Source: Polytrichum commune (taxonomy: Eukaryota > Streptophyta > Polytrichopsida > Polytrichales > Polytrichaceae). Taken from it: a stretch of DNA of 64,000 nucleotides. The stretch spans positions 7,192,001-7,256,000 of the forward strand of contig OX485809.1 in assembly GCA_950295325.1 (NCBI GenBank), in the 5' to 3' direction. This document shows, piece after piece, positions 4,136-62,318 of the stretch. The notes under the pieces were generated by a model, which made no database searches, was not told where the DNA came from, and worked only from the letters and a program-made list of their open reading frames with translations. Both the position numbers and the translations under genes were made by a program. Each line of letters starts with the position of its first letter. Positions within the stretch are counted from its first letter, which is position 1.

Positions 4136-4744
4136 CTATGATCTTCGTATTTTTGGCATTCTCCCTTTCTTTATTATTTGTTTTTTTAAGAAAAATTGTG
4201 TAACATGGTCCGGTTTGCTACAATAAAAACACATCCTTATGCCTTGCCGCCAAGATGGATTGTTTGCTTTATTTTGACGCGACACCATCGTTGCGACGTT
4301 GCTTTGGGACTTCTTCTTGTGCTTCAAGATCTCGTGCATCAAACATTTTGTCATGTACTCCATTGTAAACGCCTTTATTGGCATCATCTGTAAGGCAATG
4401 ATTAAGTACTCGTATGAGGCCAACAACCTCTTGAGCAAAAGACATGACGGTGTTTTCCTCCACATAGGTACCTGCAAACACACAAGTTGATTTGCAAGCG
4501 CTTTGACCTTATTGACATTGTCCAACAAATGGTCGCTTTCTTGCATTTTGCACCTGAAAAATTTGTGATAAATGAAGAGAATGTTAAATAAATGAAGAGA
4601 ATTCTTCGTCTCGTGAATATTGCAAAGGGTTTTTTTCGCCTTCGTAAGTTTTTTACAACTCTTGATGTGCACAAGTTGATTGTCCTCCAAGTTGAAGCCG
4701 ATAATTAACATGATTTTATTTATATGTCTTTGGTACTCCTTCAA
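4136..4744 (-). pseudogene. Ty1/copia retrotransposon gag fragment (UBN2-type plus damaged zinc knuckle)
   Basis: The minus-strand frame has the copia gag layout: a helical UBN2-like capsid part, with a segment around ASYEYLIIALQMMPIKAFTM and a following MEYM...L.HEI motif, then a basic linker, then a CCHC knuckle starting CFYCSKPDH. The last cysteine of the knuckle is replaced (FF), so the C-X2-C-X4-H-X4-C pattern is broken. The frame ends soon after, and no protease, integrase or reverse transcriptase follows on the minus strand at lower coordinates. I saw no primer-binding site or LTR pair. This is a decayed, truncated copy lying antisense to the neighbouring CACTA element. Confidence 0.75.
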
Positions 4745-6240
4745 TATTTTGAGATTGTGTTGGAAGGTGGAACCTTCTCAGCCCAGGGGTGCATCTACAC
4801 TCGATTTATGTATACACATGCGAGAACCTTTATTTAATAGGGAAGATATTTACCTTCCTCAGTTGATTATTTTCCACCTTATCAGTAGTTAGATTTCTAC
4901 AAGATGTTGTTTTCTAACACCCTATTATTATATATAAATTAAATAATCGCATAATTATAATCACTAAATCTCATTTATAAGTAGTAGAAATTTTGTATGA
5001 TTAATTTGCACATACACTACGCATACAATATACTATGCATATATTACACTATGCAAATATTATTCAACACATTATACACATACAACCATCACACTATAAA
5101 CTCTAGCATTCAACCAATATAGAAACAACATACATAGCAATAAAGTAACCTCAATATACATAAGTGTTAACTCCACCATACATAACAAATCAATATCAAC
5201 ATACATAAACCTTCAATAACAACAATGAACATTACACCTTCAACCTTAATATACATCCTGGAATATACATTTAAGGATGGAATATCAACAATACCAACAA
5301 CGAACATTACCATGTAATTAACCTTCAAGTATTAAAACATTCAAGGGACTTTAAAATTCCAACACCTTGAACTCAACCAAAGCAATTATTACATAAACAT
5401 CATGAAGTTCAAAGAACGAACAAACGCTCAATCTTTGAAGCATAAGAATGAGCAGACACAGTGAGCAAACGCTCCTAAAACGAAGCACAACAAATGCTCC
5501 TAAACCGAAGCAAAACGAGCAAATGCTCAATCAAGAGAAACTATGGCAGCCAACTAGATGAGAAAATAAAGTTCTAAAAATGGAAATGACAAATTGAACA
5601 CTACGATCCCTTTTAAAGCCCTAAAATTGCATCTTCTATGTTTGTTTGATGCCCGATACTACCCTAATACCCTGCAAATAGTTCTTACTACCCTAATACC
5701 ACGTGTATAGTTTCTGTACCCCCTAGAAAACCTTGAATATGCCAACCAACCTTTTCATCATTGAATGATGGCATTTTTCATCCAAGGACGACCGTTTCAA
5801 CAAATCCATCCATATGTCCACATACATTTTGTTTATTTCTCATTCAATGTCACTAATGGCAGATGACTTATGTTGAACCTATAAATTTTAAAAATCTAAA
5901 TTTAATTTAATTTGTGTTATTTTACATCTAAATAAAAACAAATAGCACAACTTAAACCACATCATACGTTATATATACTTCTCAAATTCGCATTTAGAAG
6001 ATGTTGTTGTATATCTTATATATATATATATAATGTGTCATTAATAAAATCCACCCTACATTTTTTCGCACGTGGTTTTCTACATTTTTGCTAGTACCGC
6101 CCCTAGTTTCTCGGATCCATTCACTATGTCCTAAAGGTCCATGGAAACCAAAACCATTTACATTTTGAACTTTCAAAGGCTTAATCTCTTTCCGTAGAAC
6201 TTGTCCATGACTTTAGTTCCTTCGCTCTCAAGATATGCCA
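4745..6240. other. AT-rich intergenic DNA with a short degenerate repeat
   Basis: No gene is visible. At about 5420-5533 a motif close to GAGCAAATGCTCCTAAAACG recurs about four times with variable spacing, forming a small degenerate array. A TA run lies near 6020-6032. Nothing else is recognisable. Confidence 0.4.
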
Positions 6241-28627: not shown

Positions 28628-29194
28628 ATCTTGTAACAATATCTCGTAACCCTTATGCTCTTGGATGAGCGAACGGTTATGTATTATGAAGTCTTGTAAC
28701 AATATCTCGTAACCCTTATGCTCTGGGATGAGCGAACGGTTATGTATTATGAAGTCTTGTAACAATATCTCGTAACCCTTATGCTCTGGGATGAGCGAAC
28801 GGTTATGTATTATGAAGTCTTGTAACAATATCTCGTAACCCTTATGCTCTTGGATGAGCGAACGGTTATGTATTATGAAGTCTTGTAACAATATCTCGTA
28901 ACCCTTATGCTCTTGGATGAGCGAACGGTTATGTATTATGAAGTCTTGTAACAATATCTCGTAACCCTTATGCTCTTGGATGAGCGAACGGTTATGTATT
29001 ATGAAGTCTTGTAACAATATCTCGTAACCCTTATGCTCTTGGATGAGCGAACAGTTATGTATTATGAAGTCTTGTAACAATATCTCGTAACCCTTATGCT
29101 CTTGGATGAGCGAATGGTTATGTATTATGAAATCTTGTAACAATATCTCGTAACCCTTATGCTCTTGGATGAGCGAACGGTTATGTATTATGAA
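28628..29194 (-). repeat. 63-bp minisatellite, nine units
   Basis: Nine head-to-tail 63-bp units start at 28628, 28691, 28754, 28817, 28880, 28943, 29006, 29069 and 29132. Units differ by only a few substitutions (for example CTCTTGG versus CTCTGGG). Because 63 is divisible by three, the minus strand stays open and would encode a 21-residue repeat ending ...IQEHKGYEILLQD. There is no promoter, signal or known domain, so coding is doubtful; recent unequal crossing-over or slippage explains the pattern. Confidence 0.92.
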
Positions 29195-29945
29195 GTATTG
29201 GTTTTTACGAAGAAGTATTGGCTCTTTAATGTGGGGGGCTCAATAGACAAGGCTTGTAGGCTGAGTCTACATGCCTCATCTCTTCTCTTGAGGGACGCCA
29301 TTGTACATTGAAACCCAGCCTCAAGAAATCAATACCGCACATAATCGGTTGCGAGGTTGTATCGAGCTAGTGATTCCTTGCCACGTGCTTCCTAGTGATT
29401 ATTGTCACATGATCGACCTCCTCGGAGCCAATGAAGGGAGCACCACGTAGCTAGGGGAGATTCAGCCCCAAAATGATTATGAATCTTAGCATGGCTGTGA
29501 TTCATGCAGAAACACTCCGGAGATGGGAGGCAAAGCATAAATTACCTGCGCATGTTGAATCTGGAACTGAGGAAATCTGATTGGGGAACAGCCAAGAGTC
29601 CATGATGATAGGAATCATCATGTGTTATCCATTGGCGGATTGAACCATCCATGGGAAGTAGTTTGGCAGGAATTCACTGGAGCTGCCGCTGCTGCAAGCG
29701 AGTGATGGTGATATCCAATGCTTGTTGTCGTGTTCAAAGATGGAGGAGCCAAGTGGAAGTCATCCGAGATGTGCCACTTTGCATGTCTCCGCTGCAATCC
29801 TCATCCTCCTCGCACTCCTCTTTTTGCATGCACTGTCGTGGGACAATCGCACTCCCTACATCTCAACCTCTTGCATATTCATTTATACTCTATCCAGTGG
29901 TCGTTAGACGTTGAAAAATTTGTCACCAACAACTTCATTTCTCAT
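29195..29945. other. Region upstream of the LEA-like gene
   Basis: No separate gene is recognised. A CACGTG G-box core lies at 29382-29387 and a CCACGTAG at about 29441, either of which could be ABA-responsive elements, but both are 1.1 kb or more from the start codon. A regulatory role is only a guess. Confidence 0.25.
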
Positions 29946-30535: not shown

Positions 30536-33140
30536 GCGTCCATGATGACTACTACTGCAACAGCGCTCCAAGCGCCATGCAGCAGTACCATTTCCACCTT
30601 GAATGGCAATGTGAAATCGTCGTGCGTCAGATTGCCTGCCAGTAGCCTCGGCGGAATCCGTCTCAATGTCGCCTACTCCACTTCCTCTCTCAGGTAGTAG
30701 CCCAATCCTCCCTCAACACCATTTTCTGGTGCCTCTTTGCCATTAATTTTCGATTGATGTTTCTGGAATTCTCTCGGAGGTGTGGAAGGTGCTCACTGAA
30801 ACAAACACATTTACACGGATTGAGAAGTTGCCACATTGTGATTAAATATGTGGTGTTTTAGAACTTGAACCCTCCCTTGCGTGCATCCTCCTGGTGATGA
30901 AAAATATATGTGAGCAAGATATTTTTCTTCCATGGAAGAGACTTATCTTGTTAGAACAAGCGCACGTTGCCATATCCATTCCACAAATCCTCCCACATCC
31001 ATCCACTTTTTTCTTTTGCGAATGTGGACGTATATCCGTATTTGGGGAGAAAAATTACAAATCTAATGATTCAGAGACACGGTTAAGATCTCATCACTCA
31101 AAGCACCGTAACCTATGGTAGGTAAATGAGTTACCTATAGGTGGAAATCCGATGGGAAATAAATAAGGTCGTTGCTCGTCTCATCTCATGATGTTTATTG
31201 AGTTTGCGGTGGCAAGAAAAGAAGGCATGTTTTGTTGGAAAATCTGGATGATCGCATTCATTTTACCCATTGCAGGTATGGCAATGGGTGGGACTTGGGA
31301 GCCTTCTCAGCAAATCTTCCAACATAATGTCCACTTTCACCAATAACTAATGTTTGTTGTGTGGATATGGGAATGGGTGGGTTTCACAACATTACTAAGC
31401 CTCACGCTCCCTCGCCCATTCTAAATAAAAGAGATCTCACGTTTCATTGGGATTGACCTTGTCACGGCACTAAGATTGAAGCCTTTTTTAGTTTATTTTT
31501 AAAGAGTCACAACATGTTTATTTCCAGTCCTTACCCGGATTATTGTCTTGCCTAGAGTAAGTGGCATTTGGAACTTTGCAATGTTATGCTGCTCTGTATA
31601 GTTTGGACAAAGATTATTGCTGAAGATTGTGTTTTTACTTCATTTTCCCAGCAGCTCCACTCCAGTGAGGCGCCAATTCATCGTCAAGGCAGAAGGGGAG
31701 GGGATCATTGACAAGGTGGCGAGCACCGTGCAGTCTGCAGCCGAGAAAGTGAAGAATTTGGCAGGGCAAGTGGGGGAAGTGTTGAGTGACAAAGGAGAGG
31801 AAGTGAAGGAATCCGCGGAGGAGGCCACTCAGGATGCACAGGGAAAGGCCAAGGAGATTGGTGAGCAAGCCAAGCAAGGTGGGAAGGATTTGGAGAACAA
31901 GACAAAGATCGCAGCCGATTCTGCATCCAGTAAAGTTGATGAGACTGCTGTAAGTTGTTGAGTTAACCTATATGGTCTTCCTCAAACTCAATGGTAGTTT
32001 TCGTCGGCATGATCTCTATGCTTTTCCACTGGTTGTTTCGCACATACTATCTGTGAATTTATTTGCACTTGTGGTGCATGTTAGGGGATAGTGTTTGAAT
32101 TTGGATGAAACGCGGCCTATTTCAGTTCAATAAAGGTCAAACTCATGATAATACCTCTTGGAATGCCAATATGAGTTTGACCTTCAATAAACCGATATTG
32201 ACTGTTTATTGTTCAAACATCCACACTACTGTCAAGCATACACCTGACATAGAAGGTTTCGTATACAAAACAACCAACTCTCGACAAATAGGCATGTTGA
32301 GTTAGAGATTAACGCAAGCTTTGTACGTGTATTCTTTTTTTTATGTGTAGCAGCTGGTAAGGGTATTGAATTGATAAACTTAACCCTAAAACTTGATACC
32401 CAGTGGGTGAAGATAATCAAATTATTATAAAATATGTGAGAGAATGTAAGCATTTTCTTGAAATCTCGCAATGGTGTATGTGTAAAATTCTTGAGTGGGT
32501 ATCAGCGTCTCAACAGTGAAATTTGAAGGATATTATACCATCCAAGTTGAGTACTTTATACCTGTCCCCCCCACACCCTTATTTAACATAGATATCCGCA
32601 CAACATTGGTGTCGACCATATCATCTCGCAGCAACCGGAATTGGCATAATTTCACATGAAGTGATATGAATTCTCGTTGTGTTGAGCTCACTCTTCGTGC
32701 AAGAAGTTTGAAGCATGAGGCTTATGTTTGTGCAACAGGCTGCTCCTCGAGTGTCAGATTTTTTGACTTTTTTGTGGGCGTTGTTGACCATTTGGGCGAC
32801 AATGCAATAGTTCCAGAGGCTTGGAGTAGGTAGAGCTTATTGCTGATGATGAGTGCACGCTTTGAACTGTAATCATTGATTAATTTTTAAAATCAAATTT
32901 TGTATCTGTTGGCAGCAAAAGGCAAAAGGCGCCGCCCAGGACACTTCCGAGGAAGCTAAGAAGAATTTGAGGAAGGCTGAAAGCAAAGGGGAGGATGTCA
33001 AGAGTAGAGCTGAAGATCTGGGCTCTTCTGCTGAGACCAAGGGTAAAGAGGCCATCGACTCTGCCAAGCAGGGTATTGACAGTTCTACCAAGAAAACTAA
33101 CTTGGATAATGTCACCCCATTCTTTCCAGATGAAAAGTAG
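30533..33140 (+). CDS. Plastid-targeted LEA-like (group 3/LEA_4-type) protein
   Basis: Exons 30533-30693, 31652-31949 and 32916-33140 join in phase to give 227 aa. Residues 1 to ~62 are rich in Ser/Thr/Ala with few acidic residues, like a chloroplast transit peptide. The rest is hydrophilic, Lys/Glu/Ala-rich and helix-prone, with LEA-type 11-mer-like repeats such as AAEKVKNLAGQVGEVLSDKG and KAKEIGEQAKQGGKDLENKT, and no cysteine after the transit region. LEA proteins of this kind protect membranes and enzymes during dehydration or cold; the role is inferred. The exon 2 acceptor is a CAGCAG tandem site, so the mRNA may include or skip one serine codon. The start codon is the first ATG after the duplicated leader. 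Intron 2 carries a foldback element. Confidence 0.85.
31385..31600 (+). repeat. Dispersed repeat in LEA intron 1 (copy at 43.4 kb)
   Basis: Shared blocks with 43415-43620 in the same order are CATTCTAAATAAAAGA, GTTTCATTGGG/TTCATTTCATGGGG, ACCTTGTCACGGCACTA and a later TAGAGTA region. Divergence is high. The family is unknown. Confidence 0.5.
32028..32300. mobile_element. Foldback MITE, copy 1 (LEA intron 2)
   Basis: The element is a long imperfect palindrome. Left-arm blocks GGTGCATG, GTGTTTGAAT and GGTCAAACTCAT are mirrored by ATGAGTTTGACC, TTCAAACATCCACAC and AACAACCAACTC on the right. The same palindrome recurs six times in aldehyde oxidase introns. No coding capacity. Confidence 0.65.
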
Positions 33141-38600: not shown

Positions 38601-41544
38601 GCTGAACAACACCACTAATGGTTCTCTTGGAAGTTCATTCAATTGCAAGAATGTACATGGAACTACAGTACCCAAAATAACACAAGTAGGAACAAATGCA
38701 GACTGCCCAGTACATTTGTTTGCAAGTCAAACAAAATTGATATTCACCCCAGTATACAAGACCATGTGTATCGTTCACAGTTAGCTCCTAATTAGAATAA
38801 AAGAACAGAGCACTTACGGTCCAATAGATCCTGAAAAATAGGCCATGAAGTCATCCAAGAAAACACTTTTGAGTGCTAGAAGCCCATAGAGCACTGCCAA
38901 GTAGACATGCTGCAAGATTCCACCAGCAACGAAGATTAAATGGATTGAATGAATTAACTATCTTTAGTCTGTACCTATGGATCTTCAGGAAACAAACCTC
39001 AGCTCTGAGATCCAGAAACACTTGACACACAGAGATGTGACGAAAACTACCCGTGCCTGCTCTATACAGAATTTAAAAATATTATGCTTCAACAAATTAC
39101 CTGATAAGCGTGATACCACTGTTTAGGTTGTGTGGACGCCACCCTCCTCACATCAGGATCTTTAACACCTGCACATTGAGGTTTCATGTCTATGAGTTGC
39201 AAACTATAGTCTCCCACACAGTGAGGTCATAAAAAGCAAAGAACCATACTGATCCTCCAGTGGGAAGAAACCAAATTGTGCAGAACAATTACAGGACATG
39301 GCGTGTGATGTGCTGTATAAGGAGCATCTTAGAACCTGTTTTACAAGCAACTAGTAAAGTGCAATCTGGTTCGACACAAGATAATAGTTTTTTGCCACTT
39401 TTGCCACATGTTATATCCACATTGGTCAAGACCGTGTTAAATCCAGTATGGAAATTAGCTTTCAGCACTCAGAGTGTTAAGCCAGACAGCACCCTATGGT
39501 ACTTCTATGGAAGGATAATCTGCAAGATGCATACTCATCCATAAAATAAGCTGGGAATATAATTTACAAACTTACGGATATCAGGGTCATAGTTATCAAC
39601 ATTGGTGAATGAATGGTGTCCCACAACATGCTGCTGCCTCCACATGAAGCTGTAAGCGTAACAAGAGCATTACAATGAGTAAAATTATGGCTTCATCACA
39701 TCAGGAAAATCCCAGCCAGCCAGAACATACATCCTATCCCATAACAAAATTTCAATTTTCTAAATCTCCATATAGTTCCAATCTATGTGCAAAACAATGG
39801 GATGAGATTTACCTGCTCGCACCAACAAGATCCAAAGAAGCTCCCATAATGTATCCCAGATCACACCAAGTGGAATATGCCCCTGTTGAGTATAATTTAA
39901 CCACCAGAGGTTAATGGAGGACAATCTCATGCAGTTCCAAAATGTAAGCATACATTGTACAGGTTATGTATTACAGAATGAAACAGGGTTTCTTGCTTTC
40001 AGGGGCTAATATGCACAGCTGGAGAAAAACCTTCCAATCAAAACATACATGCCAAAATACAAATTTTCATTCTGAGCACTTATAAGAGACAACAGAATGC
40101 AAGGAATGGAGAAACTAATCAGTACATATGACCATATGAACCAAGACAAAAGAGACAACTTACCATGATTACCATCATGTTGTATGGAAACCCCAACTTC
40201 TCCTGCAAAGAAGCCCATGCCAATTGCAAAGCCCAAAGAAAGGAGAAGGCTAGTCGACCAAAAGAATGCCATGTAGTAACACAAAAAGTAGCTACCAATA
40301 ATGACCAAGGATTTCAGGAGCATGTGCGGATGCACTCGGGGGTTTATCTGCGCAGTACACAAAAAAACAACAGAACCAGGTTTATTTGAGCATCCTTTAA
40401 ACAAACTCCTGCAAGTACAACATGACACTAAAGATAGTTAAATTGATTTGGTTGAAGACCGGTACACCTCTAGTTTCAGTCACATATGTACCCTTCACAT
40501 AAAAACCAGTACCAAATTGCACTCGACTCTGTGATGCCTATTTGGATTGTTGGATCATTTCAAACATTTCTGTGACTCGCACCAACCTTTCTTTTTTTGA
40601 AGTATGCCTCCACCCGTTGCTTGATAACCATATAAAAGTCTTCTTGAGCAGCATCCTTATACTCAAGATGGGCGGACTTGAATTTTTCATCATCGATGGA
40701 CAATTTCAGCTCTCCAATACAGTAATTCGCCAGCATTTTCCTGCAGACATCACCCATCCCAGAAACTGAGATACAAGTGAAGATCCCCCTGAACTACAAT
40801 CCCTTGCCTACCAACCAAGTTCCAAACAATTGTCTATTCAAAAAACACATCTGGCTACAAGCACTCCAAAATGGATTGACAGACCCATTATATGCAACAA
40901 TCACGTAGAACTATACATCAAAATAATCACCTGACATAGAGTGGATGGTACGAGTCAAATAGCTGAGTGCAATCCTGCCCTGCTTTGACATAGATGAGGC
41001 TGCCTCCTGGATGTCTGGGAACCCTGAAACAGGCAACAATCTTCCAGCATAGGTACCCATCTGCCAGGCGGCAATTTTGCAACTCATCCATCTACTATTT
41101 CCACAACACAAAGAAAAAATAAATGCAGACTTGCAAGGAAAGCACCGCATAGGGATAGCTTCAATATTGACTACAAAGGGAGAAATGTTGCATTGGCCCC
41201 CCAAGTATTGCACTGACTCTAGAAACTCAACCCTATCGGTTGCCTCCTCCATAGCCAACACGCCAATTTGCAATTGGCAGGTTCAGTCATTCCACAAGTT
41301 CAATACAACCTGTTCTGACATTACAATAAATCCCCTCCTAAAGTTATCAGGGCTTGGGTCTGTACCATCTGGTGACATCGTAAACTTTGCCCCAAATCAC
41401 GAGCCAGCAATCCGTGGGGCTGCTGTGGTGGCTGACATCTTCAAGAGTGTATTTCTCCAAGACAGGGGCCCCTGTGGCGGAAGTATGCAACATCACTTCC
41501 TCCGAAGGTAGATACTCACCAACATCCGATGAATGGGGCGCCAT
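35674..41544 (-). CDS. Delta-5 front-end fatty-acid desaturase, cytochrome b5 fusion, 13 exons
   Basis: Front-end desaturases insert a double bond between an existing one and the carboxyl end; delta-5 enzymes make arachidonic and eicosapentaenoic acids in the ER. Exons from 5': 41366-41544, 40931-41023, 40587-40740, 40164-40347, 39813-39882, 39576-39649, 39101-39168, 38818-38909, 38319-38463, 38024-38149, 36776-36847, 36475-36585, 35674-35748. Phases all fit, giving 480 aa. The N-terminal cytochrome b5 domain has HPGG (64-67) and a second haem His in FDSYHP (H86). The three His boxes are HDGNH (199-203), HVVGHH (234-239) and the front-end-specific QIEHH (419-423, Q instead of H). Hydrophobic membrane segments flank them, and the C terminus is a short cytosolic tail ending RLDG. 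The HDGNHG/QHVVGHHSFTN wording matches what I know of bryophyte delta-5 enzymes rather than delta-6 or sphingolipid delta-8 enzymes. Regiospecificity is inferred. Confidence 0.9.
37140..37690. repeat. About four ~120-140-bp tandem hairpin repeats in desaturase intron 10
   Basis: Units recur with GAAAGGTTGAAC, then an inverted TTCAACCTTTCC, then GGACATTAATTCATAT. Each unit can therefore fold on itself. The units also share GGCATGTTGAGCGGATGGTG-like blocks. Divergence is moderate. The array makes up half of the 1.2-kb intron between exons 10 and 11. Confidence 0.65.
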
Positions 41545-48800: not shown

Positions 48801-51800
48801 AATAGAAAGTTCTCTCAAAGAAGGATCAAACCCACAGTTTTGTCCCTCTTTGAGGGACTTTACAAATAACTCTTTTATTCAGCTTATTCCTATCAGTCAT
48901 TAATGAGACATAATACTGGATTAGACATGTATAATTATTGCAACCTTGCAAGGGTTCAAATTTGGATTCACCAAACGCTTGAGCTGGAAAAGGATGGGTA
49001 CCTTTAAGCAAAGAGTTGGCCACGGAACTTTTCCATCAGGTTGTGCCTTTGTAAGGCTCTCTTTGATGGGCAGCAAACGCTCAACTAACACAGCACATGC
49101 CTTCAACGCAGCTTGACATGCGCCCTCAGATGTTGTGCTTCCACCATCAACTCTTGTGTTAGGCAAACTGAAAGTATCGCTTTGGAGAATCCGAATTTTG
49201 TCGAGCATGTCCATACTTTGCTCCTGGCCAACCAAACCTCGTTAACAAGTTGAGATGCGAGTGTCAACACCCTTATGCAAGAATTCATTTTAAAACTAGG
49301 ACACTTACTACCTGTAGAGTGCTGTCTGATTCAACACAAAGTAATTGATTTTTGGCATAACTTGTGCACATGTCATACCCACATTTGTCATGATCATGTT
49401 CAATCCAACGTGGATATTAGCATTCGGCACTCAAAGTGTTGAAGCAGATAGCACCCTTGCAGTTTTCCTTTAACAGTTCCAGAATGGTGAGGATCAAGGA
49501 TGGAAAACAAGATGCCTATACTCCAAACCCTGAACCTGAACTCAAAGTCCAAGAGGTAGCTCAACACCAAACCTATGACCACCCAATGTAGGGGGGGGGG
49601 GGTCGTTTTAGAACACAAATCTAGGACTTCCAAGGAATTTCTCATTTATGAGAGTTTTAATGAATGAGAGATCCTTGGAGGTTGTAGGTTTGCATGCTCA
49701 TAGGTTCTGTGTCGGTGTTGGGTTGAGCTACCTCAACGACTTTGATTTTAGGATTTTAGGTGTGGGGTTTAGGTATCCTGTTTACCATCCTTGATCCAAG
49801 GACCTCTCATTTATAAGAGTTTTAATGAATGAGAGATCCTTTGAGGTCCTAGGTTTGCGTTCTAAGATGAAACCCTCCCATTGGTGTGGGTGATAAGTTT
49901 AGTGTTGGTGTTTCATTGAGCTACCTGTTAATACACAAAATTCTCAAGATGGATTTGTAGGTGATTACCTTGGTCCAGAGCGAGCTAAGGGAATAAGCCA
50001 CCGCTTGTCGCACTTTCGTATACAATCCCTGCCCCATTTCCACACCCCCAATCTCAACAACGATCGACCCGTCTTGAAAAATGCTCACAGTCGCCGTGCT
50101 ACCCTTGACATCGACCACGTACACGGACGGTGTCATTGCCAAGCCTCGCTTGAGCCACTTATTTTGAGCATTAAACTCTTCAACCTCCTTCTCGCGTTCC
50201 GCCTTCTTCGCACACACCTTGAGCTTGTTCCACATTTGCGCCAACGTGTACCCATCAGCTTCACCCAATTCTTTGCCGTAAAAAAGGCTCAAGGTTTCGG
50301 CTGTATGAAAATTCGCGTCACGCACCTTGTCACTACTCATGCCCAAATACGACGCAACTTGGCCCACGATGCAGTCTGCGATGTACGTCCCTTGGACATC
50401 CCCTGGGGCACGTACATACGTCTTTGGGCCATTGTTCGTCTTGCAAATCGTCAATTTGATGTCAATGCTCCCGTAGTTGTATTTTCGTAAGGAGGTGTTG
50501 ATCGAGCTGAGGTTGAAGGCAGTACCGTTTATATACCAGCCTCCTTCGAGTAGAATCTCCGCTTTCAAGCCCGTGATTTTGCCGGTTTTTGTGAATCCCA
50601 CACTGAACTTTGTCTTGGTAGGGGTGCGGCCACCAATCATTTGCATGTCCGTGTTGCGGTCAAGTGATATTCGCACCGGTCTTCGGAGCTTGTATGCAGC
50701 CAACGCAACTGCACAAGAAATCTGCAAATAAACCAGGTTCGCAATGTGAGATTTATAATAATATAAAAATGCCTTAATACAATGTCCTCAATTTCAATCA
50801 GAGCTTTTGTTGGAGTTGGTCCCTTATGATTTTGTATAGGTTATTTTGCATACAATAGAGTTACCCTTTAATTCAACCGGAGTTTTGGTCGTGAGTTGGT
50901 TCGTTTGCATACAATCATGGAGTCGGTGCAGGGTTGAACAAGGAACTTTTAATATATCGGTTCATTGAGGGCCTCAGTTTGGCATACCAAGAGGTGCTAA
51001 AATGAGTTTGGCCCCAATTAACCCATACAGAATGTTCTTCATTCAAACCTCCACACCGATTCCAAGCATGCCCAAAAAAAATTGCATGCAAAACAACCAA
51101 CTCCGGATCAAATCTTCAATTGAATTAAAGAATAATATCTCTAATGTCTTTTTCACTTGTGGTGCATGCTTGGAGGTAGAGTTTGAATGAAGAGCAACCT
51201 ATTTGGGTTGGTGGAGGGCTAACTTCATCTGTTGGTAAACCAAAAATGAGTTTGACCCTCACTGAACCAATACAAAATGGTCTTCATTCAAACCTCCACA
51301 CCACCTCCAAGGATGCACAGAAAAAACACCGAACATGGAAGGTGTTGTATCCAAAACAACCAACTCCCAACAAGAAGTATCTTTGGATCAAAGGATAAGT
51401 CAACTAAACAATTTAAGTTGGCAACTGACATTCTACTTATAAATTTTTTGGGGGATGAACTGAGCTTGAACCACCACAGCCACCCGTACGCATGTGAGAA
51501 AAAAGTACCTTTAAGTTCTGCAACACTTTGCCACCAAATGCACCACCAAGCCGACGTGTAATGACTCGAATATTATGGAGGGGCAAATTTAGACACATTG
51601 ATATAACCATTTGAACCATATCTGGAGCTTGACATGATGTGTACACATTCATGCAACCATCTTCATCCGGAACTGCCAAAGCTGTTTGTGTCTCCATATA
51701 AAAGTGCTTCTGTGAGTAAGTCCGGACCTGCATGTACATTGAGCACAGGCTTCTTGAGTATTTAAAAGTGAAGGACCTATAAGGAACATGTTCAAGAAAA

Positions 51801-54478
51801 TGACAAAGACAATACCATGACACAAAAGAATCTTCGTATGAAAGTGATAATTCACATGATGGTGTCATACAAAAATCCTCACACGTCCTGTTCCACAGTA
51901 AGGTAGATGGGTCTTAAATGGTTATTTTTCCAATTAGTCCACTTCTTGTAAGATATGAAACCCGCGATTAGTACAAGATGCTTAGCGAATCCAACTCATG
52001 CCCGTAGCCACTTTCCTCATAATTTTTTGAGCTCAAATAAATATCTTATTCATTTATCAAAAGTGACGATTGTCATGCTCATCAAATGGTCATATAGGCC
52101 CCCCCAATTATGTTGACTATTGAGCCTAGAATGGCTATCATATTTTGAACACACAGTAGAGTCTCTTTGAAACACATGACGCCTTTTTGGCACCCGTTCT
52201 TGGAGCCACACCAAACCACATACCACTCAAATATAGGTGCACTAATAAGATAAGTAACTGAATAAGGGCTGCTACCTTAATGAGTTGGGCCCTACTATAT
52301 GTTAACAGCCAACAACCTTCATAAGTACATACTACCTTAGCTTACCTCTCCTTCTAGATTGAATTCGGCCTTCTGTAAGCTCTCCTCAACATTTCCAACC
52401 AGCCCAGGTTTAAAAGGAGGATGCTGAGGATAAAAAGAGTTTTTTGCAATGGCATCTTCACAGGTCATAATGGGAGCTTCAAGGTTGTGCGTATCATAGT
52501 CCACCTTCACTTTTCCTGCTGCCAACCTTGCATTGTCGTATGTGTCTGCAACCTGTTGGCAATGATATCCACAACAAATGAAGCTTACAATCAACCTTCA
52601 TCACTACACTAAATATCTGATTTGGTCTTATGTTAAAATTGAAGTGCCACGTATTTATCATGGGCCACTTTAATATTCAAACTCTTTAGAATCAATGCGT
52701 TGTCTTGCTACAGCTCACTGAAGCCTCCTCTCATAGAGGCTAAGTAACTTTTATGTTCTGATAGTACTGACCCACATTAATTTACGTTCAGATAAATCAT
52801 GTGGTCCACAACATTAAACACTAATGAGAAAAGGTGATACTACAAAAATGATGTGGCCATGATTATTTACCTAATTTTCATTGTTGTGGGTCAATGATGA
52901 ATAGTGTGGCCCACACTTAACCAGATATATAGGACATTCCATATATAGCACATAAGTATAAGGTAGAGGTGCCTTAGACGGATACTTTTCTCTCTACACC
53001 CACTTCTTGTACGATATGAAACACACAATTAGTGAAAGATGATTAGCAAATTTAAATCATGCCCATAGCCATCAGCCTCATAATTTCCGGGGTGCATATT
53101 AATATCGTATTCATTATCAAAGTGAAGATTATCATACTCATTAAGTGGTCATATAGTTCCCCCCAATCATGTTGAGCCTAGAATGGTTAGAATATTTTGA
53201 GAACGCAGTCCTATCTCTTTTAAATAAATGATGCCTTTTTGGTGTCTGTTCTTAGATTCGCACCTAACCACATACAACTCAAATACGTGTATCCAGGTTT
53301 TTGTTGTGTATGATTGAGGCACGTCTGCCTTAGTGACTAATCAAAGGGTCAGAATCATCAAACTTACAACAAGTCCCACTGGCTCCCCAACATAGCATGC
53401 CACATCTGCAGCAAATAATGGTTCCTCGTCTCTGGTGAAGTTCATACAACCAATATTTACACCACCTTGGGGTATATCTTGGGCTGAGAGGTAAGCAACT
53501 ACGCCCTCCGATTCAATTGCAACCTGGGTATCTTGGCCCTTGATCGTAGCATATGGCTCAGAACTTAGCACAAATGCAGCATACAGGCAGTGTGGAGGTG
53601 AAGGAATATCATCCACATACTGAGCCTCACCTGAATCAGAAATTGATCAAAAAGACTTAATTGTCGTCTCATTGTTATGAAGGTGATATATGAATGAATG
53701 TGTAATCAGGACAACCGCACTATGAAAAGGAAAGAAATTTTGGGTGTTCAAGGTTACGAAATGTTAAATTCTCAACTGTATTAAAGTTATCCTCTAACTC
53801 AATGTAACTTTTGGTCAGGAGTTGGTGGTTTTGCATACAACACCTTCCATATTTGGTAAGTTTGCAGTGTGTCCTTGGAGGTAGTGTGAAGGTTTATTGG
53901 TTCACTGAGGGTAAATCTCATTTTGGCATGCCAAGAGGTGCTAACATGAGTTTGGCCCTCAATGATCCTACATAGGTTGCTCTTTGTTCAGATTCAAACA
54001 CTACTACCTCCGAGCATGCACCACAAGTGAAAAGAAATTATTGATATTGTATGCAAAACAACCAATGAAAAATCATAGAAGACCAACTCTCAACCAAATG
54101 TCCCATTGAATTAAAAGGTTAACTCTAATATATCCGCATGATGAAATGACTGGAAGTGACAGAAGTGGAGGGAGAGAGTGGAGAGAGGAGAGTTAGGATG
54201 AGACAGGCTACCCCATCACATACCCAGGGGAGGGAATGTGCATTAGAAGAAGGAAATGGTGAGATTTTACGCACCAGAGGCTTGAATCTGGGAGAGAAAC
54301 TTTGGCACGGGCTGCGAAACAGGAAAATGCTCATCGTTCAATGTAATGCTCTGTTTCCCAACATGAGGAATCTGGATGTTCAGCCAAGCATACACAATCA
54401 CAGCAGCATGAAAGCAGTTAGTAATGTGTCAACAATGCATTTTGAACATCCGGATCATCCCATTTGATCATCCCATTC

Positions 54479-54543
<65 letters not shown>

Positions 54544-57500
54544 TCCAATGTTGTCACCGACATAAATAATGGCTTTGCTGTAACCCTTCAAGTTAGTCTA
54601 TTTCTATATGTAGTCCCGAAACAGGCCTCACAAGAATTAGAGGCACCTCGAAGACTTCTTTAGATGGACACAGACAAAGCTGCCCACACCTAATCTCCCC
54701 CAAGGGCAAGCCTCTAGGTTCCCACATGGTTGGTTGAGAACATCCAATTCATCTGGATATCCCCACTATGATGAGGTGAACCAGAGGTGGTAGGGTGCAC
54801 CAGAAAATCAGGTGCTAGGAAGGTCACCCATCCGAGCACTATTCTGGCCTTAGGCATTGTAATCTCGAAGTTCCCATAGGATCTGGGTTAGGGACTTGGG
54901 TTTAGGCCACCTTCCAGGAAAGAGTCCCCTTACAAATCAAATTTGAAATGGCTTATTCCAGTATGATCAACCCACTTACACCTCCAGATTCAGATGAAGT
55001 TGTTGCACAATCAGAACCTATCATGGTATACACTTCAGAGATTCTGATCTGCGGAGAGCAATCACTACAATATACTCAAACTTGTTATGTTCTTCCATAC
55101 TGCATTTGATGATTCACAAGTCCTGCATCAAGGCTGGTGAACTACCATGGACAACAACTCTTGAACACTAAACCCTGAGCATTAAACCCCTGCAAGTTCA
55201 ATCAAACTTAAGTAAAAATTGGAGGCCTCAAGGGCATCAGGTATTACATTGACAAAAACAAACAAGTGTCATAAGAGGATTTTTTACCAAGGTAGCAGGG
55301 GCCACAAACGGTTCTTTAGAGATTAGAGGATTCAGAAACTCAAACAGAAACCCCACTGCAAGGCTGACACGGAACTCCCTCTTGGTTGTCCCTTCCAGTG
55401 GAACAATCTCCTTCTTCAGCAGCCCAATGGCGTCCAACACCAAACTCGCACTCAAAGGCTTTCCCTTGAGCACTTGCTCCACTTCCAAAGCTCGAATTGC
55501 ATGCTTTGTCCCAAACGCACCGAATGCCAACCGTACATCCTGAATTACAACCCCATAGCTCCCACTGGACACTCGTGCCAGGAATGCAGCATTCGTGTAC
55601 GAAACTGCATTGCCAAACGGCCTCGGAGCTCCCCTGAAGGATTTAAACACAGTTTTTAGGTTTGAGCTAGTGGCATCATTTTTAATACCATTGTGGATAC
55701 CATTTTGGGTGCCATTGGTGGATGATGTTGATGGTGATGCAACATGGAGGGGTATGTCGATTGACTGCAAAATGCTGCACTCGTCGCCATGTTGTGCACC
55801 TTTAGCCAAAAACTCCTCGAGTGATAAAACAGCAGTTTTTTGAGCCTGTTGACGACCCATTAAGGTGACAACCTTGACTGATGCCCCTGCACCCAACAGG
55901 ATGGTGGCAAGGTCGGATTCGAAGCCTAATTGTTGAGCCATCATGAGATTGCCTCCCACACTTCCCCAGTTGCGAACGTGCCCCGCAGCTAGTTGTTTCA
56001 AGTGATCAGCTAACCCTTGAGCAATCGCTGGCTCTTTACTTCTGGTCACAAACTCCTCCAAAACCTCTATCAATTCAGCAATGGGAGTGGCCGCACCCAC
56101 TTTGACTCCGTCACAGCTTCGGCGCACCTCCAGGAGTTCAGGTATCTAAAGCAAAAAAGTCGGATCGGAATCTTAATTATGTTGCAACAAACTCAACAAA
56201 AAAATATGCATAAATTCACCATAGCATTCATAAGTGGTGTAGTGAGTGTCAATTCTAGATAAGCATCTTGGAGAGTATACACTCAATACGCATTCTCTTT
56301 GGCAAGTTCTTTACATTTAATCTTGGAAGATAAGGTAGCAATGAGATGTCGACTAATGAGAGTTTAATGCCACTTGACATTGCTTAGCATTTATGCATGT
56401 AATCAAGGACCTTGATTCTTGGACTTATTCTTGAAGCTAGGATAGAAAGAGAACATCCTTACACATACTTAGGAATGCTATGCAGTGACAGTTGAAGCAA
56501 ACTCTCATTTGAAAATCACCTGGCCTATCTCTCACCTTGCTTGTGTCCAAATACACTTGGGGCTTCATCACATTTCGGAGAGTAGGTATACACTAGGCGA
56601 GATTCTTTTTTGGCAAGTCATTTTAAGTTAATCTTGGTAGATGGGAGAAAGCTTTGTCTGAAGATATTAAGTCACAGTGAGATGTCTACTAATGAGAGCT
56701 TAAAGCCATTTGACGATTCTTGCCATGAATGCATGTAATCAAGGACCTTAATTCTTGGACTTATTCTTGAAGTTAGAGTAGAAAGAGAACATCCTTACAC
56801 ATGCTTTACGAAACCTATACAGTGACAAATTAAGCAACTTGGAAATCTGATTCAAGAATCAATCACCGTCTCACTCTGTCTCACCTTGCTAATGTCCACA
56901 TACACTTGGGGCTTCATCATGTCCTTGTAAATTGCAGAGCTCGTGTTTCCCACCACCAGCTTCACCTGCTTCATTGATAAACTTTGTTTCAGGAGATTCA
57001 AAGCCTCAAGTGCATGAGCCAAACTTGGGGCACTCACCCACTCGCGTTTCTCTCCCTTCTTTCCTTTGCAGATCCCAACCACATGCTTGAACCTCACTGC
57101 TGCACAGAGCAACTCAATGGGACTTTTCGTTAGGAGTTCATCCCCTGTAGTTTCCCATTGGTTGTTTTGCATACAAGACCAATAATTTACTTCCTTCCAC
57201 TTGTGATGGTGCATCCTCAGAGGTACTGTTTGAATCTGAATGAAGAGCAACCTATTTTGGCTCCTTGAGGGCCAAATTCCATTTTAGCACCTCTTGGCAT
57301 GCCAAAATGAGTTTGACTTTCACTGAACCGATATGGAATGTTCTTTGGTTCGTCCCCCATAAATTTCCATTTGTTGTTTTGCTCACAAAACCAATTATTT
57401 CTTTCCACTTGCAGTGCATCCTCAGAGGTAATGTTTGAATCTGAATGAAGATCAACCCTAATTCGTGAGGTTCATTGCTCGGGCCAAACTCGTTTTAACA

Positions 57501-60196
57501 TCTCTTGGCATGCCAGAATGAGTTTGACCATCGCTGAACCGTAGTAAGAATGTTCTTCAGTCAAACCTCCACATTACCTAGTACCTCCAAACTCAAAGGG
57601 AATTTTTGTAAGGAGTTTATCCCCTCTGATTTCACATTGGTTTTTTTGCATACAAAATCAATCATTTCTTTCTTCCACTTGTGGTGCATCCATGGAGGTA
57701 GTGTAGAATCTGAATGAAAAGCAACTCTATTTTGGTTCCTGAGGGCCAAACTTTTAGCATCTCTTGGCATCCCAAAATGAGTTTGACCCTCACTGAGCCA
57801 ATATAGAATGATCTTTGTTTCAAACCCTCCTCACTACCTAGTACCTCCAAGCATGCACTGAAATCTCACCAAACATGGAATGTGTTGTATACAAAAACAA
57901 CCAACTGCTGACCAAAACTCTGATGCTGAAGTAGAGGATGTAAATGCTGATGAATGACTACCTTCTTCTGAAACTCCTCTGTTTTGGGAAATCCTTGCTT
58001 CCAATTCCTCCATCAGGAATCTGGGAAACTTAGGATCAGCATTTGGATCATACACTGGCAGATTCTCCTGCTTCGCTTGGGACGCCCCTGACCAACAGGA
58101 ATTGAGACCCAAATCTTCAAGGTCGATGTCCGAAGCGAAAGACTTGCAAGTGTCAAGGATGGGCCGGTATCCAGTGCACCTGCAGATATTGCCTAGCACA
58201 GATTTCTCCAGCGTCTCTGACGTAGGGCCTGATGCAAGATGATGATTATTGCAACCACCGTCTGGAATTAGGGGTATGATGTGTTTGGATGTTGATGTTG
58301 ATGTTTTCTGTTGCTCCTTCTTGAGGCAGCCATAGATGGCCATTGTCATGCCCGGTGTGCAGAAGCCACACTGTGAGGCATGGAATGCGGACAGACGTTG
58401 GTGAATGGAATGAAGGCCGTCTCGCTGATTGCCCAGGCCTTCAGTGGTGGTGATGGCACATCCATCAATGGAGCACAGGAGCACCAGACAGGAAGTCACA
58501 GTTCGCTCCTTCACTTCCTTTGTCTCCGGATTATAGCTTGACAGCATCACCACACATGCTCCACATCCACCTAAAACAACAACACATTGCAATTCATCAC
58601 ACAAGAACAAGCAACAAATGTCATCAATCTATGGTAGCTTGACAGCATCACCACACATGCTCCACATCCACCTAAAACAACAACACATAGCAATTCATCA
58701 CACAAGAACAAGCAACAAATGTCATCAATCTATGGTAGCTTGACAGCATCACCACACATGCTCAACATCCACCTAAAACAACAACACATAGCAATTCTTC
58801 ACACAAAAACAAGTAACAATTGTCATCAATCCATGGTAGCTTAAGAGCATGGCCACACATGCTCCACATCCACTTGACACAAACTCACAATTCATCACAC
58901 AAGAACAAACAACATAGTCATCAATCTATGGTAGCTTGAGAGCACTGCCACACATGCCCCACATCCACTTGACACAAACACAGAATCCATCACACAAGGA
59001 CAATTAAAATCGTTACCAATCAATGGCTCAGTCCCTTGATTACAAAGCTAGAGTTCGTGTAAGATCACACTTCAGCTTGATTCTCACCATTCAACTGTGC
59101 AGGAAAATATCCCAAGAACATCAACCAACCGAAGAAAACTTCTGTAAGCAGCACCTTGAGTAATCCATTACCTAATAAGCAGCCAAGCCTAACACCCCCC
59201 CACCCCGGCCCGCCCTCAATGACAAGCCAGGCGCGTCGAGAAAGAAGAGTCTAACTTGATTACTCGCAGAAACTGAGCTCGAGATTGTATAGTGTGAACT
59301 CAAGTAAGAGTCCTGATCACTTAACGGGCCGATTGCCCTGTTACGAATGTGGAGAACTGCTGTAGGATCACACTCCAACATTGAGTTCCACACTCAGCTC
59401 GAGTTTCGTCATCATTCCACCCAATTTGCAATGCAGACAAACACTTTACCTCACACGCAAAAATCGCACAAAAATCACAACCATCCGCACACACATCACT
59501 CAACAGTCTTCCATCATTTCAATGTAGGCACTGCCTGTGCGTCCCCAGCTTCCAAGCAAGGAATCTCTACAACCACCACTACGCCCCCTTTCGACCTTCA
59601 CTGAACCCAGGCGCAGCACCAAGATGACCAACCACACACACAAACTTCAAAAACCTCCCAAGAGAATTTTGATCGCCCTTTAAGCTGAGCTCAAAATTTA
59701 CATCTATTTTTCTAGATTTCCCTAAATCCCACAACATTCCTCTCAATTAGCATGCGCAAATTGACTAATCAGACCCAAAGAAGAATTAGATCTGTCCACA
59801 GAGACATCATCAACAATCTTCCACCATTTGAACGTGGACACTTGCCTATACCTCCCCAGCCTGACAGAAATGAAAACCCCACAACCACCTCTAGTAAGCC
59901 CCTACGACCTTCCAACAACATACACAAACTGCAGGAAACATCTTCCCAAGAGAATCACCATTGATTGCCCTTTCAAACTGAGCTCATAACACATGTTTTT
60001 GGGGCTGCTCACCTTCACCACATCCTCGCTTGGTGCCTTTGAATCGAGATTCCGTTCGAAGGTAGGAGAGGAGGGTGGTCGAAGGATCCACGGAAGCAAG
60101 CTCCACTCGCTCCCCATTCAATGCAAACACAAGTGGCCGACGCTCCACCACTCCCTCGTCCCCTATCGAAGCTCCCATGTTGCCAACTAACCTCAA
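45821..60196 (-). CDS. AO: Molybdenum aldehyde oxidase (plant AO / abscisic-aldehyde-oxidase family), 14 exons
   Basis: AO oxidises aldehydes to acids using molybdenum cofactor, FAD and two [2Fe-2S] centres in the cytosol; angiosperm members make ABA or IAA. Exons from 5': 60013-60196, 57962-58570, 56885-57063, 55288-56145, 54275-54371, 53368-53630, 52346-52552, 51509-51727, 49969-50721, 49002-49223, 48371-48460, 47746-47844, 46966-47155, 45821-46059. Phases agree, giving 1402 aa. Plant-ferredoxin-type cysteines are C59, C64, C67 and C89; the second cluster is C129, C132, C191 and C193 (QCGFC...GNICRCTGYRP). The FAD domain has VVGNTSSAIYK and NWGSVGGNL. The molybdenum domain has QASGEAQYVDDIP, RRLGGAFGGK, MGQGLYTKV and the catalytic-Glu motif SGEPPLL. 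DIPQGGVNIG and SGEPPLL favour AO over xanthine dehydrogenase. Start 60196 or in-frame ATG 60178. The exon 2 donor and exon 3 acceptor are the least certain borders. Confidence 0.92.
46630..46958. mobile_element. Small inverted-repeat element abutting AO exon 13 donor
   Basis: The left end GCTACACTGTTATATCTGAA matches, imperfectly, the reverse complement of the right end (GCTACATTGAATATCTGATT). About 330 bp, no coding capacity. It ends 7 bp from exon 13 (exon border 46966), so the element sits almost on the 5' splice site. A related element lies at 52610-52932. Confidence 0.45.
48600..48850 (-). repeat. Inverted copy of the 26.3-kb dispersed repeat, in an AO intron
   Basis: Read on the minus strand it shows TTTGATCCTTCTTTGA, CTATTAAGAGCTCATTAGCT, TTGGAGCCTATTTT and AAAGTTGGGTAAT in the same order as 26240-26520. 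It lies in the intron between exons 10 and 11. Confidence 0.55.
50868..51125. mobile_element. Foldback MITE, copy 2 (AO intron 8)
   Basis: The terminal TTTAATTCAA near 50868 is mirrored by TTGAATTAAAG near 51118-51129. Inside are GAGTTGGTTCGTTTGCATAC, GGTGCTAAAATGAGTTTGGC and CTTCATTCAAACCTCCACAC, the family's standard blocks. The left arm is partly degraded. Confidence 0.6.
51145..51405. mobile_element. Foldback MITE, copy 3 (AO intron 8)
   Basis: It lies directly after copy 2 in the same orientation. Blocks are CACTTGTGGTGCATGCTTGG, GTTTGAATGAAGAGCAACCT, ATGAGTTTGACCCTCACTGA, TTCAAACCTCCACACCACCT and AAAACAACCAACTCCC. Confidence 0.6.
51895..52235 (+). repeat. Dispersed repeat family F, copy in AO intron 7
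   Basis: It is collinear with 52965-53300: CACTTCTTGTAAGATATGAA, CATGCCCGTAGCCA, AATGGTCATATAGGCCCCCC, GAGCCTAGAATGGCTA and GACGCCTTTTTGGCACC. Both copies have the same orientation, about 1.07 kb apart, and flank AO exon 7, which resembles paired LTR remnants but with exon sequence between them. Confidence 0.6.
52610..52932. mobile_element. Small inverted-repeat element in AO intron 6
   Basis: The left end ACTAAATATCTGATTTGGT pairs imperfectly with the right end in reverse complement (CTATATATCTGGTTAAGT). Internal GTGGCCCAC/GTGGTCCAC words repeat in both orientations. It resembles 46630-46958. No coding capacity. Confidence 0.4.
52965..53300 (+). repeat. Dispersed repeat family F, copy in AO intron 6
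   Basis: Direct partner of 51895-52235 (CACTTCTTGTACGATATGAA, CATGCCCATAGCCA, AGTGGTCATATAGTTCCCCC, GAGCCTAGAATGGTTA, GATGCCTTTTTGGTGTC). Confidence 0.6.
53787..54127. mobile_element. Foldback MITE, copy 4, most complete (AO intron 5)
   Basis: Full-length palindrome of about 340 bp. The left end GTTATCCTCTAACTCAATG matches the reverse complement of the right end (GTTAACCTTTTAATTCAATG). The inner arms GGAGTTGGTGGTTTTGCATA and TATTGTATGCAAAACAACCA pair, and the centre has CATTTTGGCATGCCAAGAGG. No open frame of note. It best defines the family's ends. Confidence 0.7.
54477..54539. repeat. (TA)n(GA)n microsatellite in AO intron 4
   Basis: A TA run of about 18 bases is followed by a GA run of about 44 bases. 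It lies about 100 bp upstream (in transcript sense) of exon 5. Confidence 0.97.
56270..56900 (-). repeat. Tandem duplication covering the AO exon 3 3' end and part of intron 3
   Basis: The copy at about 56580-56925 contains the genuine exon 3 end at 56885. The copy at about 56270-56570 repeats it with the blocks CATGTAATCAAGGACCTT, GGACTTATTCTTGAAG, GAAAGAGAACATCCTTACAC and CACTTGGGGCTTCATCA. The second copy retains about 35 bp resembling the exon end, followed by a GTGAGA donor. Confidence 0.8.
57109..57915. mobile_element. Foldback MITE, copies 5-7, three units in a row (AO intron 2)
   Basis: Three head-to-tail units lie at about 57109-57345, 57346-57595 and 57596-57915. Each has a TTGTTTTGC(A/T)-type left arm, GGTGCATC or GCAGTGCATCC, GTTTGAATCTGAATGAA, CTTGGCATGCCA-like centres and ATGAGTTTGACC. 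They occupy nearly the whole intron between exons 2 and 3, starting about 45 bp from the exon 3 acceptor. Confidence 0.65.
58534..59022 (-). repeat. Five ~101-bp tandem units repeating the AO exon 2 splice acceptor and first codons
   Basis: Units start at 58534, 58635, 58736, 58837 and 58932 (101, 101, 101, 95 and ~91 bp). The first contains the genuine exon 2 border at 58570. On the minus strand each has TGTTGTTTTAG or a derivative, then GTGGATGTGGAGCATGTGTG, which in the true exon encodes the Fe-S segment GGCGACVVM. Units 1 to 3 are nearly identical; units 4 and 5 have decayed acceptors. Confidence 0.92.
59490..59995. repeat. Diverged tandem duplication in AO intron 1
   Basis: Segments at about 59490-59700 and 59800-59995 share CAACAGTCTTCCATCATTT/CAACAATCTTCCACCATTTG, CTCCCCAGC, CACAACCACC, CGACCTTC, CCCAAGAGAAT and GCCCTTTAA/CAAGCTGAGCTCA-like blocks in order. 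The offset is about 305 bp. The right copy runs up to exon 1 (60013). Confidence 0.55.
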
Positions 60197-60730: not shown

Positions 60731-62318
60731 GGGCCGGTTCACACTATGGACCATGAAGGCTGACCATGGAAGAGGGCATTTTTCAATGGTCCGAGTTTAG
60801 GGTCCAACTTCCATGGTCCGACTTCTTAAAAAATCAGTTTTTGAAAGCCATGGGCTCCTCACCATGTGTAAAGTGAATATAGACCAAGACGAATGACTAT
60901 GCACCAAAAAGTGAATGTGCTGATTTTTTTTTTTAATGCATGTCCAAAAAGGGTGATTTTTAGAAATAATATCCAAGTTTGACCATTCTCTTGTCTTCTC
61001 TTGGGCTTCACTTGTCTTTACTTCTTATTACATGTGTCGAAGATGTGGCTTGCAAATCTTCTCACACGCAATTTTTACCAAAAACAAAAATGAGAGATTT
61101 CATTTGTACATGTGACATGTAATTTACATGTGACATGTACCTTGTGTTGTCACTACATTAAATAAGATATTTAGTGTTTGATTATATTTAGTGTTGTTAC
61201 CACCATACCTTGCTCAACATTAAATTTCAATTCTTTGATAATTAGTGTTAGAAGATTTGCTAGAAGATATGTTGGTATTCTCCTTTTGTCATTGGTTTTT
61301 TTTTTCATATCCTTACTAACACTAAATTAAAACTTGTAACTTCCACGTATTACCATAGTTGATATTTAGTGTTTGAGTTTACACTCAATGTTACTTACTT
61401 TCATAGGGTTATTGATATTTAGTGTATGCATTTGTATTTGGTGTATCGAGCACTAAATATCTTACTTAGCGTAGTAGAAAACTATGCAAAAAAGAACCGC
61501 AATCTTTTGACCACCCTGATCTACAGTCACTAAATGACTACATGTTTTCCTTTTTCGTTTTGCAACTGTAATTTTTAATATTTTGGGGCGTGTAATATAC
61601 CGTTGGAAAGGTATTTTCAAGACCTTTCCAATGGTGTATTAAAATCCCCTAAATTCCAACTATTTCAGCTGGTAGACCAAGAAAACAAATATGCACTCAA
61701 ATTCTTGAGTTCTAGATGTCCCACATTGTTTGATGAAACATGTTGGACCAAGTTTGAGGGGTAGGGCATGGAAGAAAGGGTTTGTCTCATGGGCTATGAT
61801 ATGATCTTGGCACATAGAGGATGGACTTGCTTCTCAAGATTCATTACATCATATAGATGCTGAAAAGTGTGCCTTGTGAGCCTTGATTAGTGGGAAGAGT
61901 TGTATATAAAGCCCCCCAACCCGTACAAAAGGCATTTAAAGGGTATTATAACGGCATATCTTTGCCATGGGCCCTTGCCTTTTCCTACCAAATAATTAGT
62001 GGGAAGAGTTGTATATAAAGCCCCCCCCCCTTACAAAAGGCATTTAAAAGGTATTATAATGGCGTATCTTTGCCATGGGCCCTTGCCTTTTCCTACCAAA
62101 CCACCTCTCTTGCCTCTCTCACTGCAAAACCCGTTGGACCATGTCAGTGCATTTATTAGGCCTTGAAAATTGTATTTTGGGGACCTCGACTTCCATGGTC
62201 CCTTTGCCATTTTTTTTCCTTGGTGTAATTCGAAGTGGTCCCGGGACAAGTTCAACAACCAATCAACGCTCTTATAGCGCCTCGGTCCGACTTCATGGTC
62301 CATAGTGTAAACCGGCCC
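60731..62318. mobile_element. Non-autonomous DNA transposon, Harbinger-like ends
   Basis: The left end GGGCCGGTTCACACTATGGA matches the reverse complement of the right end (GGGCCGGTTTACACTATGGA). The 28-bp inverted repeat has a single mismatch. Flanks are GAA on the left and TAA on the right, one base from a 3-bp TWA-type target duplication. Element length is 1588 bp with no transposase frame. Inside are a short perfect hairpin near 61592-61641 (CGTTGGAAAGGT/ACCTTTCCAATGG) and a 109-bp tandem duplication at 61886-62100 whose units each contain GTTGTATATAAAGCCCCC. Confidence 0.65.

Follow-up and report, generated by a model that had tools for sequence, protein, structure and literature searches.

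A five-unit tandem array across the intron 1/exon 2 boundary of a predicted aldehyde oxidase gene in Polytrichum commune

The host gene and the array at its first acceptor

The window (the whole stretch of DNA that was analysed, 64,000 nucleotides) carries a multi-exon molybdenum hydroxylase gene on the minus strand, running from ~60.2 to 45.8 kb, for which at least nine introns were assigned. A Pfam scan of ten open pieces of this gene gave matches for eight; exon 1 alone and a piece at 52.3-52.6 kb had none at 0.01. The first four matched pieces hit Fer2_2, FAD_binding_5, FAD_binding_5 with CO_deh_flav_C, and Ald_Xan_dh_C, and the last four MoCoBD_1, MoCoBD_1 with MoCoBD_2, MoCoBD_2 and again MoCoBD_2, so that the 2Fe-2S, FAD and molybdenum-cofactor domains of the xanthine oxidase/aldehyde oxidase family follow one another in minus-strand order. 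A PDB search with exons 1-3 placed aldehyde oxidases (3.5e-46) narrowly ahead of xanthine dehydrogenases (2.5e-44), and among NCBIfam models the xanthine dehydrogenase small subunit scored best (7.8e-56), with mammalian aldehyde oxidase next (1e-48), neither coming near its cut-off. From the hallmarks of the plant-type proteins we tentatively prefer to read the product as an aldehyde oxidase rather than a xanthine dehydrogenase, and the piece at 46135-45824 (minus strand) is presumably its C-terminus. The exon pieces are all open, having been selected as open pieces, and the gene looks intact; the boundaries assigned to exon 4 (its end) and exon 5 (its start), like the exons at ~49.0-47.2 kb, are provisional. 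The first exons and the intron between them are as follows.

60013..60178, minus strand: exon 1, from the ATG, ending ...GGTGAAG in the minus-strand reading
58571..60012, minus strand: intron 1, 1442 nt, with four extra array units at its 3' end
57962..58570, minus strand: exon 2 (true), beginning GTGGATGTGG
56885..57099, minus strand: exon 3, with phase-consistent junctions

Exon 1 is followed by the donor GTGAGC, starting at 60012 on the minus strand. Exon 2 matched a PDB aldehyde oxidase (phmmer, 1.2e-30) and Fer2_2 (1.2e-22), in both cases with a query that overran the donor at 57961 and included part of intron 2, and the open piece of exon 3 matched FAD_binding_5 at 0.00058, below the Pfam cut-off. 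When exons 1-3 were joined, the product gave an ungapped alignment with a PDB aldehyde oxidase over query residues 15-145, which span the exon 1/exon 2 junction.

Across the boundary between intron 1 and exon 2 lie five head-to-tail units (59026-58534, minus strand), numbered here from the exon side.

58932..59026, minus strand: U5, 95 nt, the unit furthest from U1; altered acceptor CAAG-TGG, first base 58967
58837..58931, minus strand: U4, 95 nt; altered acceptor CAAG-TGG, first base 58872; the AG is displaced by 1 nt, as in U5
58736..58836, minus strand: U3, 101 nt; decoy with intact TTTTAG-GTGGATG at 58772; TGA within its exon-derived part
58635..58735, minus strand: U2, 101 nt; decoy with intact TTTTAG-GTGGATG at 58671; one difference from U1
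58534..58634, minus strand: U1, 101 nt; true acceptor, first exon base 58570; contains 37 nt of exon 2

The five-copy array is a real feature. Tandem Repeats Finder (TRF) reported it at 58534-59003 (period 101, 4.8 copies, score 674), and a unit-by-unit reading extends it to 59026; 20 control windows shuffled in two-base blocks yielded no array with a period of at least 60, and their top score was 62. The five-fold repeat described in the initial annotation is thus confirmed, as is the content it gave for each unit, namely the end of intron 1, the AG and the start of exon 2: every unit starts within intron 1 (CCAT...), crosses the acceptor and ends at base 37 of exon 2 (...AAGCTA), one base more than the ~36 claimed. 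The units vary in length, measuring 95, 95, 101, 101 and 101 nt in transcript order. The gap-free alignment of the exon 1-U1 join with PDB aldehyde oxidase identifies the acceptor of U1 as the true one. Within the window nothing outside the array matches it (E up to 1e-3), which argues for local duplication rather than a dispersed repeat or transposon. A structured RNA was rejected, the window being without an Rfam match at gathering thresholds, and a search for tRNA found none.

Splice signals in the units and products of alternative joins

The extra copies had been taken together as decoy acceptors. All four do lie upstream of the true acceptor in the transcript, but only U2 and U3 keep an intact acceptor, whereas U4 and U5 do not, so that three of the five units carry one. 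Common to U1, U2 and U3 is TGTTGTTGTTTTAG followed by GTGGATG, and the TTTTAG reported as intact in U2 and U3 is indeed identical to that of the true acceptor. With a rough splice matrix, U2 and U3 each scored 6.87, U1 5.75, U5 1.14 and U4 0.01. Counting both strands, the window holds 7410 AGs, 24 of them scoring at least 6.86 and 60 at least 5.74. U2 and U3 also exceeded all nine acceptors assigned to the oxidase gene (0.37 to 5.83), a ranking that is partly circular, as the same matrix served in part to choose the junctions of the gene, which were picked by eye. At 59860, an unrelated intronic AG scored 6.26, more than the true acceptor, and the matrix therefore does not predict use. On these scores the U2 and U3 decoys would, if anything, be better acceptor sites than the true one, in favour of the initial annotation, and since they outscore both U1 and the nine assigned acceptors, real and even heavy use of the decoys is possible.

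Translation of the alternative joins gave an early stop at all four acceptors, 609 to 959 nt upstream of the end of exon 2, which is the outcome that regulated unproductive splicing calls for; none of the four joins remains open, and an extra coding use of the units was rejected. Joined to U2, exon 1 gives 88 aa before the TAG in the acceptor of U1, as had been foreseen for both intact decoys. The join to U3 instead ends at 58 aa within the unit itself, where a GGA has become an in-frame TGA, and the joins to U4 and U5 are frame-shifted and end after 65 and 70 aa. The earlier expectation that splicing to the two intact decoys would yield dead transcripts is therefore upheld, with a different stop for U3.

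What the initial annotation overlooked, besides the loss of the acceptor in the diverged copies and the parallel in lancelets discussed below, is that the intact decoys are AG-GT sites. Joining exon 1 to U2 or U3 would recreate GAAG-GTGGATG, and the duplicate then provides both the GT and the AG of a complete one-unit intron, as expected in intron gain by duplication. This candidate intron, GTGGATGT...TGTTTTAG, measures 101 nt for U3-U2 and for U2-U1, and 202 nt if it extends from U3 straight to U1, with a T content of 0.41-0.43. Removal of each such 101-nt unit in a second step after a U2 or U3 join could restore exactly the normal mRNA, and for U4 and U5 joins such a step would be expected to leave the frame unrepaired, from the 1-nt shift.

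The strength of the recreated donor bears directly on this possibility. At +4 and +5 its GTGGAT departs from the donor consensus (A and G, respectively). With a score of 2.39 it exceeds two of the nine donors assigned to the gene and falls short of the other seven, and its predicted pairing with the end of U1 snRNA (-6.1 kcal/mol) falls between those of its neighbours in the ranking (-5.6 and -6.3), the nine donors, assigned by eye, ranging from -4.3 to -9.6 kcal/mol and exon 1's own donor lying at -9.6. In the window, 299 of 7429 GTs are as strong or stronger. The recreated donor thus appears weak to middling, yet possibly usable.

Stepwise (recursive) splicing, in which exon 1 would join U3 or U2 first and a 101-nt unit would then leave as an intron, can accordingly be entertained as a tentative alternative that we think doubtful. 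The AG-GT in U1-U3, the candidate 101-nt and 202-nt introns and a donor within the range of those assigned to the gene all speak for it, against which stand the missing consensus bases, the third lowest to middling rank of the donor, and the fact that a direct join to U1 yields the same mRNA, so that the steps are not required. It would be compatible with the passive origin of the array preferred below; the mRNA would then show nothing of the copy number, and the array would amount to a supply of ready-made introns. If splicing does proceed stepwise, the locus would lend itself to studying how new introns arise and how the spliceosome selects one of several near-identical acceptors spaced by 101 nt. 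The fullest form of stepwise splicing, a self-erasing splice array in which every added unit would supply an AG-GT of its own and along which the spliceosome would walk the units in 101-nt steps to arrive always at the same final mRNA, strikes us as unlikely. Were it true, tandem growth at the boundary would be hidden from selection, ready-made introns could accumulate, and array length would act as a splicing delay.

Relation to known boundary-spanning repeats

Structurally the array is of a known kind, the closest known structure being the 'mirage' minisatellites of lancelets, which are tandem repeats over an intron-exon boundary described in the globin gene BflGb6 and in Adh3 (PMC3087553), and likewise in TnC and PGBD5 (PMC3902484). 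As in a lancelet mirage, the repeats here run head to tail across the boundary, with five units that each carry 37 nt of exon start, and the AG/GT signals are found in some units and not in all (three of five). The lancelet mirages reportedly leave splicing undisturbed, which for PGBD5 is suggested, and vary in length, with copy number differing between haplotypes (PMC3087553, PMC3902484). In BflGb6 the units are reported to be homogenised inside the cluster, with the cluster boundary excluded (PMC3087553). Unlike those animal examples, ours is a plant gene with units of 95-101 nt; a limited search of the open-access literature found no plant gene described as a mirage. If the present gene is spliced only to U1, the lancelet layout also occurs, and is tolerated, in a plant enzyme gene.

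The nearest plant parallel is the potato RdRp gene, in which a two-copy tandem duplication over the intron 1/exon 2 boundary made a new intron, supported by 106 RNA-seq reads and adding exon sequence; the acceptor, pyrimidine tract and putative branch site were copied, and the donor came from formerly exonic sequence (PMC4974935). The present array likewise duplicates the first intron/second exon boundary of a plant gene together with the acceptor, pyrimidine tract and putative branch site, and its candidate donor also derives from formerly exonic sequence. It differs from the two-copy potato case in having five copies, and in that removal of the candidate AG-GT intron would add nothing to the mRNA. 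In the AGGT model of intron gain by Rogers, a repeated AGGT supplies AG and GT and thus one new intron per unit (via PMC4974935); there the AGGT lies inside an exon, whereas here it lies at an existing acceptor. Among the stwintrons of the yeast Lipomyces, one intron is described that can leave either at once or through two successive reactions (PMC7138796). The same could apply here, with the difference that the duplication there covers a few bases at the donor, while here an acceptor region is repeated in units of 95-101 nt. A ratchet point of recursive splicing is an acceptor directly followed by GT, and the intact units have GT right after the acceptor AG, although the donor so formed (GTGGAT) is weak. 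Recursive splicing at such points is mentioned elsewhere (PMC4674806), and in Drosophila new introns that are still weakly spliced have been argued to be sheltered by nonsense-mediated decay (PMC2809761).

Origin of the array and other repeats in the window

The 101-nt units differ little from one another (U1-U2 1/101, U2-U3 6/101, U1-U3 7/101). U4 differs from U1 and from U2 at 13/95 positions, from U5 at 15/95 and from U3 at 17/95, and U5 from U1 and from U2 at 21/95 and from U3 at 22/95; U4 and U5 have in common the 6-nt length difference and the changed acceptor. The outer units on the intron side are thus diverged, and the outer unit on the exon side, U1, is nearly identical to U2. These divergences fit staged growth, and their simplest reading would be an early duplication, then one that yielded U4 and U5, and then recent growth of U3, U2 and U1 on the exon side, a pattern that gene conversion could mimic. 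At this one locus the intact decoys are the less diverged units, which is easier to reconcile with drift, or with selection against decoys, than with a conserved regulatory element. A comparison of U4 with U5 for coding constraint on the decoys, which has little power, gave no hint of it, with 4/37 exon-derived and 11/58 intronic sites differing (Fisher p 0.39).

Taken with the comparisons above, the analysis makes it likely that a ~100-nt segment across the intron 1/exon 2 boundary was duplicated in tandem, stepwise, to give a minisatellite of mirage architecture, in which the two outer units would be older and have no acceptor and the two units adjoining the true one would be young and have kept theirs. 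The normal mRNA would most likely be made through U1, with some leaky splicing to U2 and U3 expected from near-equal acceptors; the products of such splicing may shed a 101-nt unit when the recreated AAG-GTGGAT is spliced again, or would otherwise carry an early stop and be subject to nonsense-mediated decay. The array would then be a passive, neutral or mildly costly by-product and no regulatory device. Since mirage repeats exist in lancelets and a two-copy case in potato, a passive genome accident is most likely. The window is moreover rich in arrays, with six of period 60 or more including this one (3158 of 64,000 bases), and given the number of introns in the gene it is unsurprising that one array lies across one boundary; these other arrays, together with the diverged direct repeats in introns 1 and 2 described below, mean that a boundary-spanning array needs no special cause. 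Against this explanation, U2 and U3 outscore the true acceptor (6.87 vs 5.75).

A regulatory reading is possible from the presence and strength of the sites, which are its basis. In it, U2 and U3 would take a substantial share of splicing, the early-stop products would be degraded, enzyme would be lowered or tuned, and array length would set expression. Acceptors that equal or beat the true one on the rough matrix, and early stops in all four alternative joins, favour such unproductive splicing, which we nevertheless consider improbable: the acceptor is absent from the more diverged copies, the reverse of conservation, U2 and U3 joins could be respliced into the normal product, and lancelet genes of the same layout are reported with normal splicing (PMC3087553, PMC3902484). 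That the assembly wrongly multiplied near-identical units, chiefly U1 and U2, is very improbable, for although these two differ at a single position and one lancelet mirage was reportedly assembled aberrantly in a genome draft (PMC3087553), U3, U4 and U5 carry substitutions of their own and U4 and U5 a length change, so that four kinds of unit can be told apart. The preferred explanation remains a passively grown minisatellite of the mirage type, spliced mostly through U1.

Further diverged direct repeats are present in both introns that flank exon 2. Intron 1 holds a second, older direct repeat in two pieces (59484-59696 and 59795-59989, ~74-76% identical). In intron 2, three diverged tandem copies (57111-57351, 57348-57557 and 57590-57821; 77-83% identical) end just before the exon 3 acceptor, and related copies at 53789-54112 (inverted), 51151-51365 and 31983-32279 in the window indicate that this repeat is probably dispersed and mobile-element-like. 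About 1.7 kb upstream of the oxidase start codon lie two copies of a 108-nt unit (61886-62100, 94% matches).

Further from the gene, nine copies of a 63-nt unit (28629-29200, 98% matches) encode a minus-strand 21-aa repeat in a 226-codon frame. Seven unrelated Pfam families match the whole of this protein, some above cut-off and with no single stretch passing, and these matches are likely to be a repeat artefact. An open frame with an HDGNHG motif at 40006-40437 (minus strand), without a Pfam match at 0.01, presumably resembles a membrane fatty-acid desaturase, and 4136-4777 holds a gag remnant of a copia-type retrotransposon (PF14223, 2e-13).
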